From the NCBI GenBank assembly GCA_946414115.1, contig CAMKNF010000003.1, positions 1 through 33,936 of the forward strand: a DNA stretch of 33,936 bases, read 5' to 3'. A model generated the notes under the pieces. That model had not been told where the DNA came from and did no database searches. It worked only from the letters and a program-made list of their open reading frames with translations. The translations under genes were made by a program, and so were the position numbers. Of the stretch, positions 1,901 to 7,183 are shown piece after piece (within the stretch, counting starts at the first letter, position 1; each line of letters starts with the position of its first letter). Source of the DNA: an uncultured Ruminococcus sp. Lineage in GTDB: Bacteria > Bacillota > Clostridia > Oscillospirales > Acutalibacteraceae.

Positions 1901-1977
1901 GCGCCGGTAGCTCAGCTGGATAGAGTGTCTGACTACGAATCAGAAGGTCGGGAGTTCGAGTCTCTTCCGGCGCGCCA
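1901..1977 (+). tRNA. tRNA-Arg (anticodon ACG)
   Basis: A 77-base cloverleaf. The acceptor stem pairs GCGCCGG (1901-1907) with CCGGCGC (1967-1973), followed by G and an encoded CCA. The anticodon arm TCTGA-CTACGAA-TCAGA puts ACG at 1935-1937, and the T arm contains GTTCGAGTC. ACG would be read as ICG after TadA deamination. The accessory island begins immediately downstream, which makes the tRNA 3' end a plausible integration site, but I found no second copy of that end in the window. Confidence 0.96.
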
Positions 1978-2040: not shown

Positions 2041-2525
2041 TTTTACTTCGGTATTTAACTGCCCACCGCACCGTTAAGGCACGGTGAACAGATTATTCTT
2101 TTTGTTAATCTGCAAAGCAGATGTCGAAATATGAACATCTTTCCTACGGTCAGCGTGACTAACGCAATACAGCGATTTACAAGCTTTGCATACCCGTGTT
2201 TTTCAAAGTGGACAAATTGTCCAAGTTTGTAATTACAGGTATTTACGCAGCCGTGTATTTAGCAGGGTTAATTAAGCCCTTTCATCCTTTCGATTTATTG
2301 TCGCTAAGTAGCAATCAAGTGGTAGTTGATTGGCACGCTCTCATTCGTTCCACGTTGTCATCACGACAAGGTGTTAGGAAGCTCAGACAGAGCAAAGGTA
2401 GTGGCAATACTGTTAAGCAACAATGGATGTACTAATGTTCAGACTTTCCCGGACTATTCAATTTGTAGATTAAATGAAAAAAGAAAACCTGTATCCAACG
2501 CCGGCAAGCAGTAAGGATACAGGAA
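2041..2525. other. Hairpin-rich non-coding stretch, possible structured RNA or decayed element
   Basis: About 480 bases with no credible gene; the ORFs at 2196 and 2326 have no ribosome site and look random. Many short perfect hairpins follow one another: CACCGT/ACGGTG (2069-2086), AGATTA/TAATCT, CTGC/GCAG, AGATGT/ACATCT, GTCA/TGAC, CAATCAA/TTGATTG and TTGTC/GACAA. The last is CCTGTATCC/GGATACAGG (2488-2523). Read on the minus strand, this last stem is followed by TTTTCTTTTTT, like a terminator. Palindrome copy 1 lies inside (2208-2224). I cannot assign it to an RNA family, and strand is uncertain. Confidence 0.4.
2208..2224. repeat. Palindromic repeat copy 1
   Basis: GTGGACAAATTGTCCAA, one of five island copies of a TGGACAA-N-TTGTCCA palindrome. 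It lies within the hairpin-rich non-coding stretch, with no obvious promoter beside it. Confidence 0.8.
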
Positions 2526-2556: not shown

Positions 2557-2562
2557 ATATAG

Positions 2563-2675
2563 CGAAATTAGCCTTAACGTCACCTGAGTATCGTACACTA
2601 CTCTTTTGGCGGGTCAGCAGGCTGTCTGGTAAACGGTCTGCTGACTAAGGATAAAATTTCTAAAAATCCTTTAAT
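2563..2675 (+). ncRNA. Putative small structured RNA
   Basis: Starts where the consensus promoter should initiate and contains no open frame with a ribosome site. CCTTA (2572-2576) can close a structure with TAAGG (2646-2650). Directly inside lies the perfect stem GTCAGCAG (2613-2620) / CTGCTGAC (2638-2645). A weak AAGGAT/ATCCTT stem (2647-2671) followed by TTAAT could end it. It could instead be a long leader of the XRE gene, though that gene has its own promoter. Family not recognised. Confidence 0.4.
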
Positions 2676-2847
2676 CATTAATATTTACAACTATTAGCAG
2701 AAATTGTCAAGATGTTTTGATGATTTTTGCTTTTTTCTTTAGTAATAAAATATTTTTATTTTCTGAATTCATTATACACGATTATTGTAGTATAGTCAAT
2801 TAGCTAAATACACTAATTTTAGAGTGTGTTATTGTGCATATTATACA

Positions 2848-2876: not shown

Positions 2877-2900
2877 AACTGTAAAGTGGGTGAAACATTT

Positions 2901-3140
2901 ATGCTGAAATATACAATTGATGTCCTTTCTGAATTAAAGAGCAGAGGTTATACAACATATAGAATAAGAAAAGAAAAACTGTTTAGTGAATCAACATTAC
3001 AAAAATTTAGAAAAGGTACGGTTGTATCTGCAGATAATATTAATACGCTATGCAAGTATCTGAATTGCCAACCCGGTGATATTCTTGAATATGTACCTGA
3101 CACATCAGAGAACGTGGACAATTTGTCCAAGTTGAGTTGA
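2901..3140 (+). CDS. XRE family helix-turn-helix regulator
   Basis: A 79-residue single-domain DNA-binding protein of the Cro/CI type (HTH_26-like). Typical features are RGYTTYRIRKEKLFSESTL for the helix-turn-helix and CKYLNCQPGDILEYVPD at the end of the fold. The track begins at GTG 2886, but ATG 2901 sits eight bases after GGGTG and matches family starts. The last residues (ENVDNLSKLS) are encoded by palindrome copy 2, and the promoter of the next operon overlaps its stop codon. It is the natural candidate to bind the palindromes or the TTCGCATATAAT promoters on either side, but that is inference. Confidence 0.85.
   Translation: MLKYTIDVLSELKSRGYTTYRIRKEKLFSESTLQKFRKGTVVSADNINTLCKYLNCQPGDILEYVPDTSENVDNLSKLS
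3114..3130. repeat. Palindromic repeat copy 2 (inside the XRE coding end)
   Basis: GTGGACAATTTGTCCAA, the same palindrome with the central base inverted. It codes for part of the regulator's C-terminus and lies just upstream of the next -35 element. Confidence 0.8.
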
Positions 3141-3189: not shown

Positions 3190-3450
3190 ATGACAGATTA
3201 TTTTGTTACTGTAAAAGCAGAGGTTTTGTACGAGAAGGCAAATATCATACTTGCCAAATATGAAAAATACCTTGATACTTGCGAAACACCGCTTGAGTGT
3301 ATTGAATCAATATACAAAACCTTTTGTGTTTATTCTAAAAGAATAATTATGTGTTCAGATGAAAAATCATATAAAGAGTTAGAACGCAATGTCAATGAGT
3401 ACGATACAATAATAGAAAATGTTTTTTCATCTGCGTTAATAGGTGCATAA
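3190..3450 (+). CDS. Small protein preceding zeta toxin, putative antitoxin
   Basis: 86 residues, helical and charged, with no recognised domain. ATG 3190 is preferred over the track start (3172) because AAAGGG lies nine bases before it. Its stop overlaps the zeta start (TAATG), so the two are translationally coupled, as expected of an antitoxin followed by its toxin. It does not obviously resemble epsilon or PezA, and has no visible DNA-binding motif. The role as antitoxin rests on position and size only. Confidence 0.6.
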   Translation: MTDYFVTVKAEVLYEKANIILAKYEKYLDTCETPLECIESIYKTFCVYSKRIIMCSDEKSYKELERNVNEYDTIIENVFSSALIGA

Positions 3451-4439
3451 TGTTTGGATATTCATCTTATGACTTTAACCATATTTATAATCGAATAAAG
3501 AATAGATTGACATTAGGAGTAGCTCCTGCTTCCTGCCCTGTTGCATATATTCTTGGCGGTCAACCGGGTGCAGGTAAAACTATTCTTCAAAATCAAATTC
3601 TTAAAAATGATTATAATTGCATTATCATAAACGCTGATGTATTCAGAGAGAAACACCCATATTTCTCTCAAATTCAGACTACGTTTGGAGATGACTCGCC
3701 AAAGTATACACAGCCTTTCATCAATAGTGTTACTGAAAAATTAATCCGTGAATTGAGTGACGAAAAATACAACCTGATTATTGAAGGAACGCTTCGAACT
3801 GCTGAAACTCCTATTAATACTTGTAAAACGCTCAAGGATAAGGGTTATCGTGTTGAACTGCACATTATTGCGGTGAAAAAGGAAATCTCCTACGAGAGTA
3901 CAATACTCAGGTATGAAATCGCAATTGCTTCAGGAAACACACCAAGAGCAACGGCAAAGGAGCATCACGACCTTGTTGCAGAATCGATTGTAAAAAATCT
4001 TGACCTTATTTATCAGAGAAAAATTTTTGATGATATAAGGCTGTTTTCAAGATTTGAAAAGTGCATTTATCCAACAGGAGAAGAAATAAGCCCTGCGGTT
4101 GTTGAACGTGAAGTTCTTAACGGAAACTGGAGCAATGCGGAATTAACTATGCTGCGAGAAATAATTTCTGAAGTAAAACGATTAAAGTCAGAGCGTAACG
4201 CACCCGATTACAATGCGTATTCTTTGCGTACTGATGAGCTGACAGACAGTATTTATGTTTCTGATTTTTATTTTGAAGGCACAAAGCAGGAAGCCGCATA
4301 TCTTACAGAACAGGGAGTAAGATATGACGGCAACATATCCGAAAACAAAAATAGTGTTATTAAAATTTCCAAATCTGAAAAAGATAAGGTTTCTAATATG
4401 CTTGAACTATTCAGAAAAAAGAATAATATAAAAAAATAA
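3450..4439 (+). CDS. Zeta toxin family kinase
   Basis: 329 residues. A Walker A motif GQPGAGKT is at residues 37-44, followed by NADVFREKHP around 61-70 and IIEGTLR, the pattern of zeta/PezT kinases. Known members phosphorylate UDP-N-acetylglucosamine and block wall synthesis. Beyond the kinase core, the last 50 or so residues (starting at TKQEAAYLTEQGVRYDG) form a separate lysine-rich tail that recurs in the reading frame after the Fic gene. Start overlaps the small upstream gene. The stop codon is followed at once by palindrome copy 3. Kinase assignment is firm; the tail's role is unknown. Confidence 0.88.
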   Translation: MFGYSSYDFNHIYNRIKNRLTLGVAPASCPVAYILGGQPGAGKTILQNQILKNDYNCIIINADVFREKHPYFSQIQTTFGDDSPKYTQPFINSVTEKLIRELSDEKYNLIIEGTLRTAETPINTCKTLKDKGYRVELHIIAVKKEISYESTILRYEIAIASGNTPRATAKEHHDLVAESIVKNLDLIYQRKIFDDIRLFSRFEKCIYPTGEEISPAVVEREVLNGNWSNAELTMLREIISEVKRLKSERNAPDYNAYSLRTDELTDSIYVSDFYFEGTKQEAAYLTEQGVRYDGNISENKNSVIKISKSEKDKVSNMLELFRKKNNIKK

Positions 4440-4460
4440 AGTGGACAAATTGTCCACTTT
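4438..4460. repeat. Palindromic repeat copy 3, perfect 23-nt form
   Basis: The best copy: AAAGTGGACAA-A-TTGTCCACTTT, starting in the zeta stop codon. TTGTCC within it lies where the Fic promoter's -35 would be, so protein binding here could control Fic transcription. It could also fold as a hairpin in zeta mRNA. Confidence 0.85.
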
Positions 4461-4470
4461 AATTAAGTTT

Positions 4471-4480
4471 ATGGTATAAT
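4471..4480 (+). promoter_or_regulatory. Extended -10 promoter of fic
   Basis: ATGGTATAAT gives an extended -10 (TATAAT 4475-4480). The only -35-like element, TTGTCC at 4450-4455, is inside palindrome copy 3 at a 19-base spacing. The start codon lies 20 bases downstream. Confidence 0.6.
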
Positions 4481-4499
4481 AAGTAATTGAGGTGATGAT

Positions 4500-5285
4500 G
4501 TGACTGATTTTGAAAAAATCCTTGAGCAATGGCAGTCTTATGACATTAAATCTGAAAATGATTTAGATTACTACCTTGATAATTTCAGAATACTGTTTGC
4601 TTATAACAGCAACCATATTGAAAACCCGAATACTACTTACCACGATACAAGAGAAGTGTTTGAACACGGTACAGTTTCATCATTTACAGGTGACTTAAGA
4701 ACTCTTTTTGAAATTAAGAATCAGAAGGATTGTTATGAGTTCTTAAAAGAAAAAATTATTAACCGTGAACCGATTACGCAGGAGCTTATCTTAAAAATTC
4801 ACGAAACGCTTTTGCACGGTTGTTACGATGAAGCAAAATACCAAAAAGGTGAAAGACCGGGAGCTTACAAAAAGCACTTATTTGTAGTTGGTGATGATAT
4901 TGGAGCTGAACCGGAAGAGGTTGCAGATGAGCTTCAATATATTATAAATGAAGTCAGAGATAATGAAGGCAAAAATCCTTTGACAGTAGCAGCATATCTA
5001 CATTTGTCGTTTGAGTCTATTCATCCTTTTGCAGACGGAAACGGCAGAGTAGGAAGAACACTGATGAATTATTATCTGATTACACATAATTATCCGCCGG
5101 TGATTATTTTTTCAGAAGATAAAGACACATACTATATGGCTTTAGCTGTGTTTGACAAAACAGATAAAATTGACGGTTTTATTAAATTTCTTAAGGAACA
5201 AGCCGTTAAGACGTGGGGAAGAAAAGAGAGAAAAAGGGTGTCTTTATCTGATGTTCAGCCATATTATCTTGAGGTTACAAAGTAG
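4500..5285 (+). CDS. Fic domain protein, tail cut off by in-frame TAG
   Basis: A 261-residue Fic protein, an enzyme class that usually transfers AMP from ATP to target hydroxyls. The catalytic motif HPFADGNGRVGR is intact, and SNHIEN near residues 38-43 fits the (S/T)xxxE(G/N) inhibitory helix of N-terminally autoinhibited Fics. GTG 4500 is used, with GAGGTG five bases before it. The frame stops at TAG 5283-5285 after LEVTK. Without that stop it would continue for 49 residues into a tail homologous to the zeta C-terminus, where zeta has CAG at the same position. The stop therefore looks like a C-to-T nonsense change, or a site of readthrough. The Fic core remains complete. Confidence 0.88.
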   Translation: MTDFEKILEQWQSYDIKSENDLDYYLDNFRILFAYNSNHIENPNTTYHDTREVFEHGTVSSFTGDLRTLFEIKNQKDCYEFLKEKIINREPITQELILKIHETLLHGCYDEAKYQKGERPGAYKKHLFVVGDDIGAEPEEVADELQYIINEVRDNEGKNPLTVAAYLHLSFESIHPFADGNGRVGRTLMNYYLITHNYPPVIIFSEDKDTYYMALAVFDKTDKIDGFIKFLKEQAVKTWGRKERKRVSLSDVQPYYLEVTK

Positions 5286-5435
5286 GAAGCCGCATATCTT
5301 ACAGAACAGGGAGTAAGATATGACGGCGATGTTTCTGTTTCGGCAAGAAGCATAATAAAGATTGCAAAATCCGAAAAAGATAATGTTCTGAACCTGCTTG
5401 AAAAGTTCAGACATAATAACGCACTCAAAAAGTAA
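5286..5435 (+). pseudogene. C-terminal tail shared with zeta, in frame after the fic stop
   Basis: Encodes EAAYLTEQGVRYDG and ends FRHNNALKK before TAA. The first 42 bases or so are identical to the zeta gene end (from 4292). The rest is diverged in bases but conserved in residues (IIKIAKSEKD versus VIKISKSEKD), so it was under coding selection. It is in the same frame as Fic and directly precedes palindrome copy 4, just as the zeta tail precedes copy 3. No ribosome site or start of its own. Confidence 0.8.
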
Positions 5436-5436
5436 A

Positions 5437-5453
5437 GTGGACAAATTGTCCAA
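5437..5453. repeat. Palindromic repeat copy 4
   Basis: GTGGACAAATTGTCCAA directly after the tail's TAA, in the same relative position as copy 3 after zeta. Confidence 0.8.
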
Positions 5454-5535: not shown

Positions 5536-5823
5536 CTAAAATAAATCGCTATGAGTTCCTGTTCTGGTGAGGTAAAGTATAAGTTCTTCTCCTGAAATCT
5601 CGTAGATAAGCAACCAGTCAGGAGTTATATGGCACTCTCGGCAACCCTTATAGTTTCCGACTAAACTGTGGTCTTTGTATTTTTCAGCTAAAGGCTGACC
5701 CTGTGCAAGAGTATCAACAACACTATTGAGCAAAGAAAGGTCATAACCTCGTTTTTTAGCTAACTTCAAGTCTTTTTTGAACATCGAAGTAAGAACGATA
5801 CCGTATTTCATTCCGTTACTCAT
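5536..5823 (-). CDS. YafQ-type toxin, mRNA interferase of the RelE superfamily
   Basis: 95 residues matching ribosome-dependent RNases of the YafQ group: FKKDLKLAKKRG near the N-terminus, then GCRECHITPDWLLIY and a C-terminal RTGTHSDLF. The terminal His-x-x-Leu-Phe is typical of the family. The ATG at 5823 overlaps the antitoxin stop by eight bases (ATGAGTAA), giving translational coupling. An internal ATG four codons later is an alternative start. The pair is apparently intact and is the most complete toxin-antitoxin module in the island. Confidence 0.92.
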   Translation of the reverse strand: MSNGMKYGIVLTSMFKKDLKLAKKRGYDLSLLNSVVDTLAQGQPLAEKYKDHSLVGNYKGCRECHITPDWLLIYEISGEELILYLTRTGTHSDLF

Positions 5824-6073
5824 CGCCTTCTAATTCCTCCAAAACCTCGCTAAACGAGCTATACACCTTTTTGTTTGGGTCATTTTTTAGAGCTTCCACT
5901 TCCTGAATAGCTAAAATTGTGTCAGCGTTTGGTGTATCATACTGAACAACACTCTGCATATATCTCACAATATTACCCTTAACATTTTCGCCCTCTCTGC
6001 TGACAATGCTTTTAAATGCGTTATAGACATTTCTGTCCATAACAAATGAGCAAGTAACCTTATCGGATTTCAT
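5816..6073 (-). CDS. DinJ/RelB-like antitoxin, ribbon-helix-helix
   Basis: 85 residues. The N-terminal KVTCSFVMDRNVYNAFKSIV is a ribbon-helix-helix strand and first helix; the acidic C-terminus (SFSEVLEELEGDE) should wrap the toxin. ATG 6073 is preceded by GAAAGGA. The gene is followed by the toxin with an eight-base overlap. Autoregulation is likely because an inverted repeat lies between promoter and start codon. Confidence 0.9.
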   Translation of the reverse strand: MKSDKVTCSFVMDRNVYNAFKSIVSREGENVKGNIVRYMQSVVQYDTPNADTILAIQEVEALKNDPNKKVYSSFSEVLEELEGDE

Positions 6074-6194: not shown

Positions 6195-6211
6195 TTGGAC
6201 AATTTGTCCAC
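6195..6211. repeat. Palindromic repeat copy 5
   Basis: TTGGACAATTTGTCCAC, about 40 bases upstream of the toxin-antitoxin promoter. It is the last copy and lies just before the IS91-like remnant. Confidence 0.8.
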
Positions 6212-6524: not shown

Positions 6525-7183
6525 TTAAGAGGAAATAAGCAATCGAAGTTTTTCAACAGCCTTTCGGTATAAATCATCAAGAGGAACCAAGTTTTTGTTG
6601 CATAAGGTTTAAGAGGACAGTACGGAAAGCATTGCGCAGGAAAGTGTAATTGAAGTGGGTTTTAGCTCTCCATTTACCGGAATTACCAACACCCCCCTCG
6701 GAAACAAGGCAGTGGATATGTGGATTCCATTTTAAATCTCTGCCAAAGGTGTGAAGAACACAAATAAACCCGGGAGTAAAAAAGCTCAAGTTTGCTATCT
6801 TTATGAAACAATCTCAAGATAGTTTTTTGAACAGCAGTAAAAAGTAAACCGAGTAAAGAACGGTCTTCGGCAAAGAAGTGGCGAAGTTCATCGTCAATAG
6901 TAAAGACGCAATGACGGTGATTGACATTGATGATTTTGCAAGACATTGCTGTAGTGCGGTCAATTGAATACATCGTACCACAGGAGGGGCAAAATCTGCT
7001 TTTGCATCTGAAAGGGACAAATTTTAATTTACCGCATTCAGTACAACCATACAAAGCACCGCCAAACGAAGGGTCGCCGCAATTAATCATTTTATTAACA
7101 TTTTCGATGATAGATTTGCGAGGTCGAAGAATATATACTATTTCATCATAATGTTCTTTGAAAATTTTCTGTAATATGTTCAT
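6525..7183 (-). pseudogene. IS91-like transposase, frameshifted and internally deleted
   Basis: The N-terminus is a zinc-binding domain: CTECGKLKFVPFRCKSRFCPSCG. After FHKDSKLELF the frame shifts by one base at a run of six T (about 6790) into FTPGFICVLHTFGRDLKWNPHIHCLVSEGG, which carries the HxH of HUH-type rolling-circle transposases. The sequence then jumps near 6590 to a third frame ending NLVPLDDLYRKAVEKLRLLISS, resembling the family's C-terminus, so roughly 200 residues in the middle are missing. The element cannot encode active transposase. ATG 7183 is the natural start. Confidence 0.85.

Follow-up and report, generated by a model that had tools for sequence, protein, structure and literature searches.

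We describe a C-terminal tail that is common to two unrelated toxins, a Zeta/PezT-type toxin and a Fic protein, encoded next to each other in a stretch of 33,936 nucleotides from an uncultured Ruminococcus sp. (contig CAMKNF010000003.1; this whole stretch is referred to as the window). The tail is one branch of a family of domains of about 50 amino acids (aa) with a predicted beta-alpha-beta-beta-alpha order, situated at or near the C-terminus of its carriers, which include relaxases, antirestriction proteins and toxins of integrative and conjugative elements (ICEs). The analysis establishes the shared domain, its carriers, the ICE context, gene conversion between neighbouring tails and intact fusions of the tail to its toxins. 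What we infer, with slightly more confidence than doubt, is recruitment or export and a bound partner: the tail would bring its carriers to the machinery of conjugation and would most likely act as a recruitment signal of the type IV secretion system (T4SS) or the relaxosome.

The two tails in the window

The genes and domains concerned are the following.

3450..4439, + strand: Zeta/PezT-type toxin with C-terminal tail, 329 aa (PF06414, E = 4.7e-42)
4266..4436, + strand: zeta tail domain, about 57 aa (from similarity to the Fic frame, the profile family and an AlphaFold2 (AF2) model)
4500..5285, + strand: Fic protein, 261 aa, with TAG at 5283-5285 (PF02661, E = 7.3e-19)
5286..5435, + strand: remainder of the Fic tail domain 3' of the TAG, open to a TAA at 5433-5435 (67% identity to the zeta tail)

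The zeta protein has a Zeta_toxin domain with the P-loop GGQPGAGKT, and its residues 4-236 align to PezT (2p5t, E = 5.9e-53). It resembles the epsilon-zeta and PezAT systems in this core and differs from them in the extra tail of about 60-75 aa and in a small partner that is epsilon-like only below threshold. The Fic protein carries the active-site motif HPFADGNGRVGR and an N-terminal inhibitory-type SNHIEN, both aligned with 3cuc, and thus shows the two sequence marks of class II Fic AMP transferases, HPFx(D/E)GNGRxxR and an N-terminal (S/T)xxxE(G/N). The HPFxDGNGR motif and the S-N-H-I-E-N aligned with 3cuc place it with class II proteins such as 3cuc, FICD and SoFic; the difference lies in the C-terminal tail of its counterparts in Ruminococcus bromii and in strain HAN027 (see below).

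A first-pass annotation, made from the DNA letters of the window, had proposed that the end of zeta and the frame following Fic encode one and the same tail, and this proved correct: frames 4290-4436 and 5286-5432 are identical in 33 of 49 residues (67%), and both end in ..KK-TAA. In the DNA, 64 nt of the two copies (4268-4331 and 5264-5327) show 92% identity. The initial block of about 42 identical bases that had been noticed measures 44 nt without interruption and lies after the stop position; as had also been stated, the DNA then differs while residues are conserved, the next 98-nt repeat having 76% DNA identity as compared with 67% protein identity over the 49 residues. The weak similarity seen before the stop (YFEGTK in zeta, YLEVTK in Fic) corresponds to strand one of the predicted domain, which places the TAG within the domain. 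When the zeta tail was compared with the whole 1.92-Mb assembly at E <= 0.001, it matched only itself and the Fic frame (E = 9.6e-19, with one TAG inside), which excludes chance similarity.

The AF2 model of the tail on its own (61 aa, from six natural sequences) has a mean predicted local distance difference test (pLDDT) score of 84 and consists of a strand at 5-9, a helix at 11-19, a strand at 34-38 and a helix at 40-58, with a short bridge near 25. A model of the whole Fic protein with its tail, from three sequences, had a poor core (pLDDT 56) and served only to support the tail.

A domain family of conjugative elements

A profile of the zeta and Fic tails was run over all 161 genomes of the genus, and the family was built by iteration over open reading frames of the fetched loci, profile-profile tests and a merged model. 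The profile of zeta and Fic tails by itself detects the tail on an AbiEii-type nucleotidyltransferase (E = 3.3e-7) and, more weakly, on a SpoVG/DUF1281 protein and a relaxase (E = 0.005 and 0.006). The carriers further comprise MOB relaxases (PF03432) with one to three copies of the domain (three in genome G024), SpoVG proteins, antirestriction proteins of the ArdC-N/MPTase-PolyVal type, proteins of 109-113 aa, a helicase-like protein, a leucine-rich repeat (LRR) protein and others. In the more distant ICEs of genomes G024 and G121, the domain is found on relaxases, a helicase-like protein and SpoVG. Profile-profile comparison links the branches with E = 2.1e-6 for the tail against the relaxase copies, 1.5e-7 for the tail against the SpoVG tails and 8.5e-6 for SpoVG against relaxase, and a profile built from relaxases only recovers a SpoVG tail (E = 0.004) and the HAN027 Fic tail (E = 0.024).

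The first-pass annotation had suggested listing the N-terminal partners of the tail by a database search, and had named a tail limited to zeta proteins as the outcome that would contradict a shared module. The search found Zeta, Fic, AbiEii, relaxase, ArdC and SpoVG as partners, and that outcome did not materialise. The proposal of a C-terminal module swapped between unrelated toxins is borne out by the intact Fic proteins with tail in YE282 and HAN027, by AbiEii as a third toxin and by non-toxin ICE proteins, relaxases among them.

Strong matches were confined, in seven genomes, to a few contigs bearing conjugation or ICE-type genes. Of 297 genomes of the order, three including the window genome gave convincing matches. 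Eight had hits in this order-level search, and five of them (G514, G520, G532, G638 and G666) were treated as chance, since only part of the model matched, in proteins of ordinary appearance. For 17 tail members, neither Pfam nor NCBIfam gave a match close to its cutoff, and PHROGs returned isolated weak matches only. Likewise, there was no significant relative of the domain among PDB sequences and no relative of the tail in plasmid records, phage records or IMG/VR contigs. No curated family of Pfam, NCBIfam or PHROGs covers the domain, which appears not to have been named before.

One contig of Ruminococcus sp. HAN027 carries MobC/NikA, a relaxase with the tail, SpoVG with the tail, a T4SS coupling protein (PF02534, E = 5.5e-69), a VirB4/TraG ATPase, a toprim-type gene and Fic with the tail, so that relaxase, coupling protein and VirB4-type ATPase are present in one element, as expected of an ICE. 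This ICE adjoins an aminopeptidase like the one that precedes the window array, i.e., the series of units to which zeta and Fic belong. In R. bromii, the array is followed by an HTH_36/DnaD-like gene, a DUF3991/toprim gene and a TraG/VirB4 ATPase.

The window array begins at a tRNA gene:

1901..1977, + strand: tRNA-Arg(acg), found by ARAGORN; the ICE end starts at its 3' end

Homology among ICE ends begins directly after the tRNA in three copies, at tRNA-Arg in the window, tRNA-Gly in R. bromii and tRNA-Gln in genome G449, and extends over about 800-900 bp at high identity. There is no conjugation gene beside the array in the window, and no tail-bearing relaxase was found in the assembly; as this is a draft of 216 contigs, an ICE elsewhere is conceivable. 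Because the array follows a tRNA as in its relatives, lacks conjugation genes and is succeeded by a fragment of an IS91-type transposase, we regard it as probably the stripped end of an ICE, reduced to the tRNA-proximal part.

Intact relatives, selection and gene conversion

In Ruminococcus bromii YE282 (FMUV01000037.1), the genes stand in the order seen in the window, with a 329-aa zeta protein with tail and a 311-aa Fic protein with tail in a single open frame. HAN027 (JAFLSM010000001.1) encodes a 310-aa Fic protein with tail and no adjoining zeta, which rules out partial duplication of zeta as the source of the Fic tail. A metagenome-assembled genome labelled uncultured Clostridia (CAMBNE010000040.1) has zeta with tail, followed by other genes. 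Close family-level relatives of Fic, at 53% identity, lack the tail, and their open frames span 265-274 aa; hence, the 261-aa Fic protein of the window is of complete length.

The Fic core is under strong purifying selection, with a ratio of nonsynonymous to synonymous substitution rates of 0.044 between the window and R. bromii. The frame 3' of the Fic stop keeps 31 of 49 residues relative to R. bromii, as opposed to a neutral expectation of 19.5 (standard deviation 2.3), and contains no additional stop, which 85% of neutral simulations do. Consequently, the Fic tail was constrained for most of the divergence of the two, and it was probably cut off recently in the window. Loss of the rest of the ICE would have relieved the Fic tail of selection. 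The frame could also owe part of its preservation to gene conversion from zeta.

Gene conversion had been proposed earlier from the near-identical block, and comparison within and between genomes supports it. A 50-column block of the two window tails differs at 3 of 50 positions, whereas the orthologous Fic tails differ at 10 of 50. In R. bromii, a different 44-column block differs at 4 of 44 positions within the genome as compared with 19 of 44 (Fic) and 11 of 44 (zeta) between genomes. Distinct blocks of neighbouring tails have thus been homogenised in the two genomes.

Other features of the window

The remaining features of the array and its surroundings are listed below.

2562..2735, + strand: candidate structured small RNA of the ICE end, with a consensus sigma-70 promoter upstream (2528-2556)
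2886..3140, + strand: HTH_26 Cro/C1-type regulator (PF13443, E = 2.1e-15), with palindrome copy 2 within its last codons
3190..3450, + strand: small protein of 87 aa, its stop overlapping the zeta start (PF08998, E = 0.019, sub-threshold)
5536..6073, - strand: YafQ toxin (PF15738, E = 3.1e-35 for 5536-5823) and upstream antitoxin-sized gene
2209..2223: palindrome TGGACAAATTGTCCA, copy 1
3115..3129: palindrome TGGACAATTTGTCCA, copy 2, within the last codons of the HTH_26 gene
4442..4456: palindrome, copy 3, directly 3' of the zeta stop
5438..5452: palindrome, copy 4, directly 3' of the Fic tail frame
6196..6210: palindrome, copy 5, which belongs together with copy 1 to a perfect inverted repeat of 27 nt

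An inverted repeat, TTACAGTAGAGTGATTTAAACA / TGCTTAAATCACTTTATTGTAA, lies at the 3' end of the tRNA (1978-2032). It recurs in each of the three ICE copies, every time at a different tRNA gene, and is possibly an attachment region or a terminator. The candidate small RNA has a fold z-score of -6.45, is strongly conserved across the three ICE copies and follows a promoter that agrees with the consensus at 12 of 12 positions; no Rfam family scored above threshold for it. The 87-aa partner upstream of zeta is probably an epsilon-type antitoxin, judging from a PF08998 score below the cutoff and from similar scores at the equivalent location in relatives (E = 0.012 and 0.031). The antitoxin-sized gene at 5816-6073 has no Pfam match. 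After the array, an IS91-type transposase occupies two overlapping frames (6577-7183) and is apparently broken.

The palindrome TGGACAAWTTGTCCA divides the units of the array, with five copies in the window and none elsewhere in the genome. In the genus, 24 of the 161 genomes have it in their mobile elements, and one genome may hold as many as 17 copies. A scan of 300 genomes sampled from the family gave the 17-bp form in no other genome, and within the samples searched the palindrome is confined to the genus. It trails several tail-bearing genes by a few bases, and copies at other loci (L041, L048, L053-L063) lie beside HTH_26 genes, 3' of integrase genes and inside coding regions (VDNLS). 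The copies within coding regions do not support a site for cassette recombination only; an operator or partition-type site of a shared regulator is possible, with the HTH_26 product as the candidate binding protein. The 13-bp core GGACAAATTGTCC is identical to that of the M.SsoII / M.Ecl18kI regulatory site (PMC3978073), although here the site is repeated in mobile elements of Ruminococcus.

Two further loci contain the palindrome. At L048 (6115-7761), an AbiEii-type toxin with tail is part of a cassette that resembles the zeta cassette of the window and consists of HTH_26, palindrome, a 146-aa gene, the toxin with tail and another palindrome. In R. bromii (L012, 3481-3981), a macro-domain protein (DarG-like in PADLOC, E = 6.6e-12) lies directly 3' of the palindrome that follows Fic.

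Discussion

The case for a recruitment or export signal is that the domain is common to relaxase, ArdC-type and SpoVG proteins and to three toxin families, together with the basic ends of the toxins. The tail, an alpha/beta domain with a basic C-terminus, would mark proteins of a family of ICEs, from Ruminococcus and related gut bacteria, for the conjugation machinery, and toxins bearing it (Zeta, Fic and AbiEii) would be carried into the recipient with the relaxase and ArdC or be held at the transfer complex. Relaxases, which are T4SS substrates, and ArdC of plasmid pSa, which moves to the recipient in conjugation, represent classes with demonstrated transfer (PMC5512222). The window would represent an ICE shrunk to its tRNA-proximal end, in which the zeta tail is intact and the Fic tail has been cut by a stop that leaves a Fic core of complete length. 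With confidence that stays somewhat short of even, we also entertain the more specific idea that the tail is a new secretion tag, unrelated to the BID domain but convergent with it on the same toxin families, and that ICEs of gut Clostridia use it to deliver several kinds of toxin (Zeta, Fic and AbiEii) as well as anti-defence proteins to the recipient cell in the course of conjugation.

The BID fold is helical. Membership of the tail in BID is ruled out by the strand-helix-strand-helix order of the 61-aa model, with no BID among the Foldseek matches listed and no Pfam match above the cutoff. BID domains occur on relaxases and on Fic and PezT/Zeta toxins, VbhT has been shown to be translocated, and BID with a positively charged tail forms a bipartite signal (PMC5675462, PMC6509941). 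The likeness to BID-tailed toxins of alphaproteobacterial conjugative plasmids (VbhT, Chelativorans PezT-BID; PMC5675462, PMC6509941) is threefold: 1) the two toxin families are the same, 2) relaxase and toxin of one conjugative element share a C-terminal domain, here on the HAN027 contig, and 3) the C-terminal end is positive, the last 10 residues of the toxins having a net charge of +3 to +5, and those of 23 carriers a mean of +3.1, versus a background mean of +0.4. The differences are that the tail has about 50-57 aa and a predicted alpha/beta fold, as opposed to about 100 aa in BID, that it belongs to another phylum, and that transfer has been shown for VbhT and is predicted for the proteins described here. 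Polyvalent proteins of conjugative elements (PMC5512222) are comparable as ICE proteins that combine effector domains, including ArdC-N and a zincin metallopeptidase, and are thought to accompany the DNA; they differ from the short C-terminal module on separate, mostly single-enzyme proteins described here. The comparison covers the text of that study, which introduces 40 new domains and in which searches turned up no mention of SpoVG, Fic or AbiEii.

Several observations weigh against recruitment to the conjugation machinery. The relaxase-only profile does not find the other toxin tails significantly; the similarity between relaxases and toxins is modest, and their link is partly transitive, via SpoVG and the small proteins. 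The LRR protein, a coiled-coil-like protein and a 464-aa protein with an internal copy are not obvious transfer substrates, and most C-termini of relaxases and SpoVG proteins are not as basic as the toxin ends. Taxonomic statements beyond the named records rest on kinship labels. Finally, the top Foldseek matches, weak as they are, are KH domains (E = 0.27), which would be compatible with nucleic-acid binding.

The chief alternative to export is binding of nucleic acid at the relaxosome. According to this explanation, which we consider unlikely though worth serious attention, the module would bring relaxase, SpoVG, ArdC and toxins onto the single strand being transferred, or onto ICE RNA, and would not be a secretion signal. 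Many carriers act on DNA (relaxase, SpoVG, helicase-like protein), the C-termini are basic, and the fold comparison gives KH domains of poly(C)-binding proteins as its best matches, though non-significant ones. However, Foldseek against the PDB gave nothing at E <= 0.001, the alignment has no conserved GxxG loop of the KH type, and it is not evident why zeta or Fic should need to bind DNA. A module of this kind would still be a recruitment device and thus overlaps with the reading that we favour.

The tails could also be functionless by-products of recombination between repeated cassette ends (tail and palindrome), spread by gene conversion, as might be suggested by the conversion between neighbouring tails, the palindrome close behind several tail-bearing genes and the persistence of the window Fic without its tail. 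This is improbable given the conserved and open frame after the Fic stop and the conservation of the domain over wide distances in relaxases of palindrome-free genomes. It is still less probable that the TAG is read through or an assembly error and that Fic with tail is made in the window strain. The tail frame is open and conserved and the assembly is a draft, but the sequence suggests no read-through signal, and TAG is a normal stop that terminates other window genes as well as the zeta gene of L045 and the Fic gene of HAN027, which rules out stop recoding. Of the functions that the first-pass annotation had offered, export or partner binding survives as our inferred reading, while an antitoxin-binding or autoregulatory appendage is very unlikely: the tail does occur on three toxin families, two of them in similar regulator-partner-toxin cassettes, but relaxases, SpoVG and ArdC carry it too, close Fic relatives are complete without it, and an inhibitory-type motif is already present at the N-terminus of Fic.

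By what rule conjugative elements of Gram-positive bacteria select the proteins that travel with their DNA is largely an open question. A conjugation role of the tail is testable by existing Cre-transfer assays. If the role proposed here is true, it would add to BID a second example in which Fic and PezT/Zeta toxins have become conjugation-linked, and co-transferred proteins of gut ICEs could be predicted from sequence by a short, recognisable domain at the end of relaxases, antirestriction proteins and toxins.
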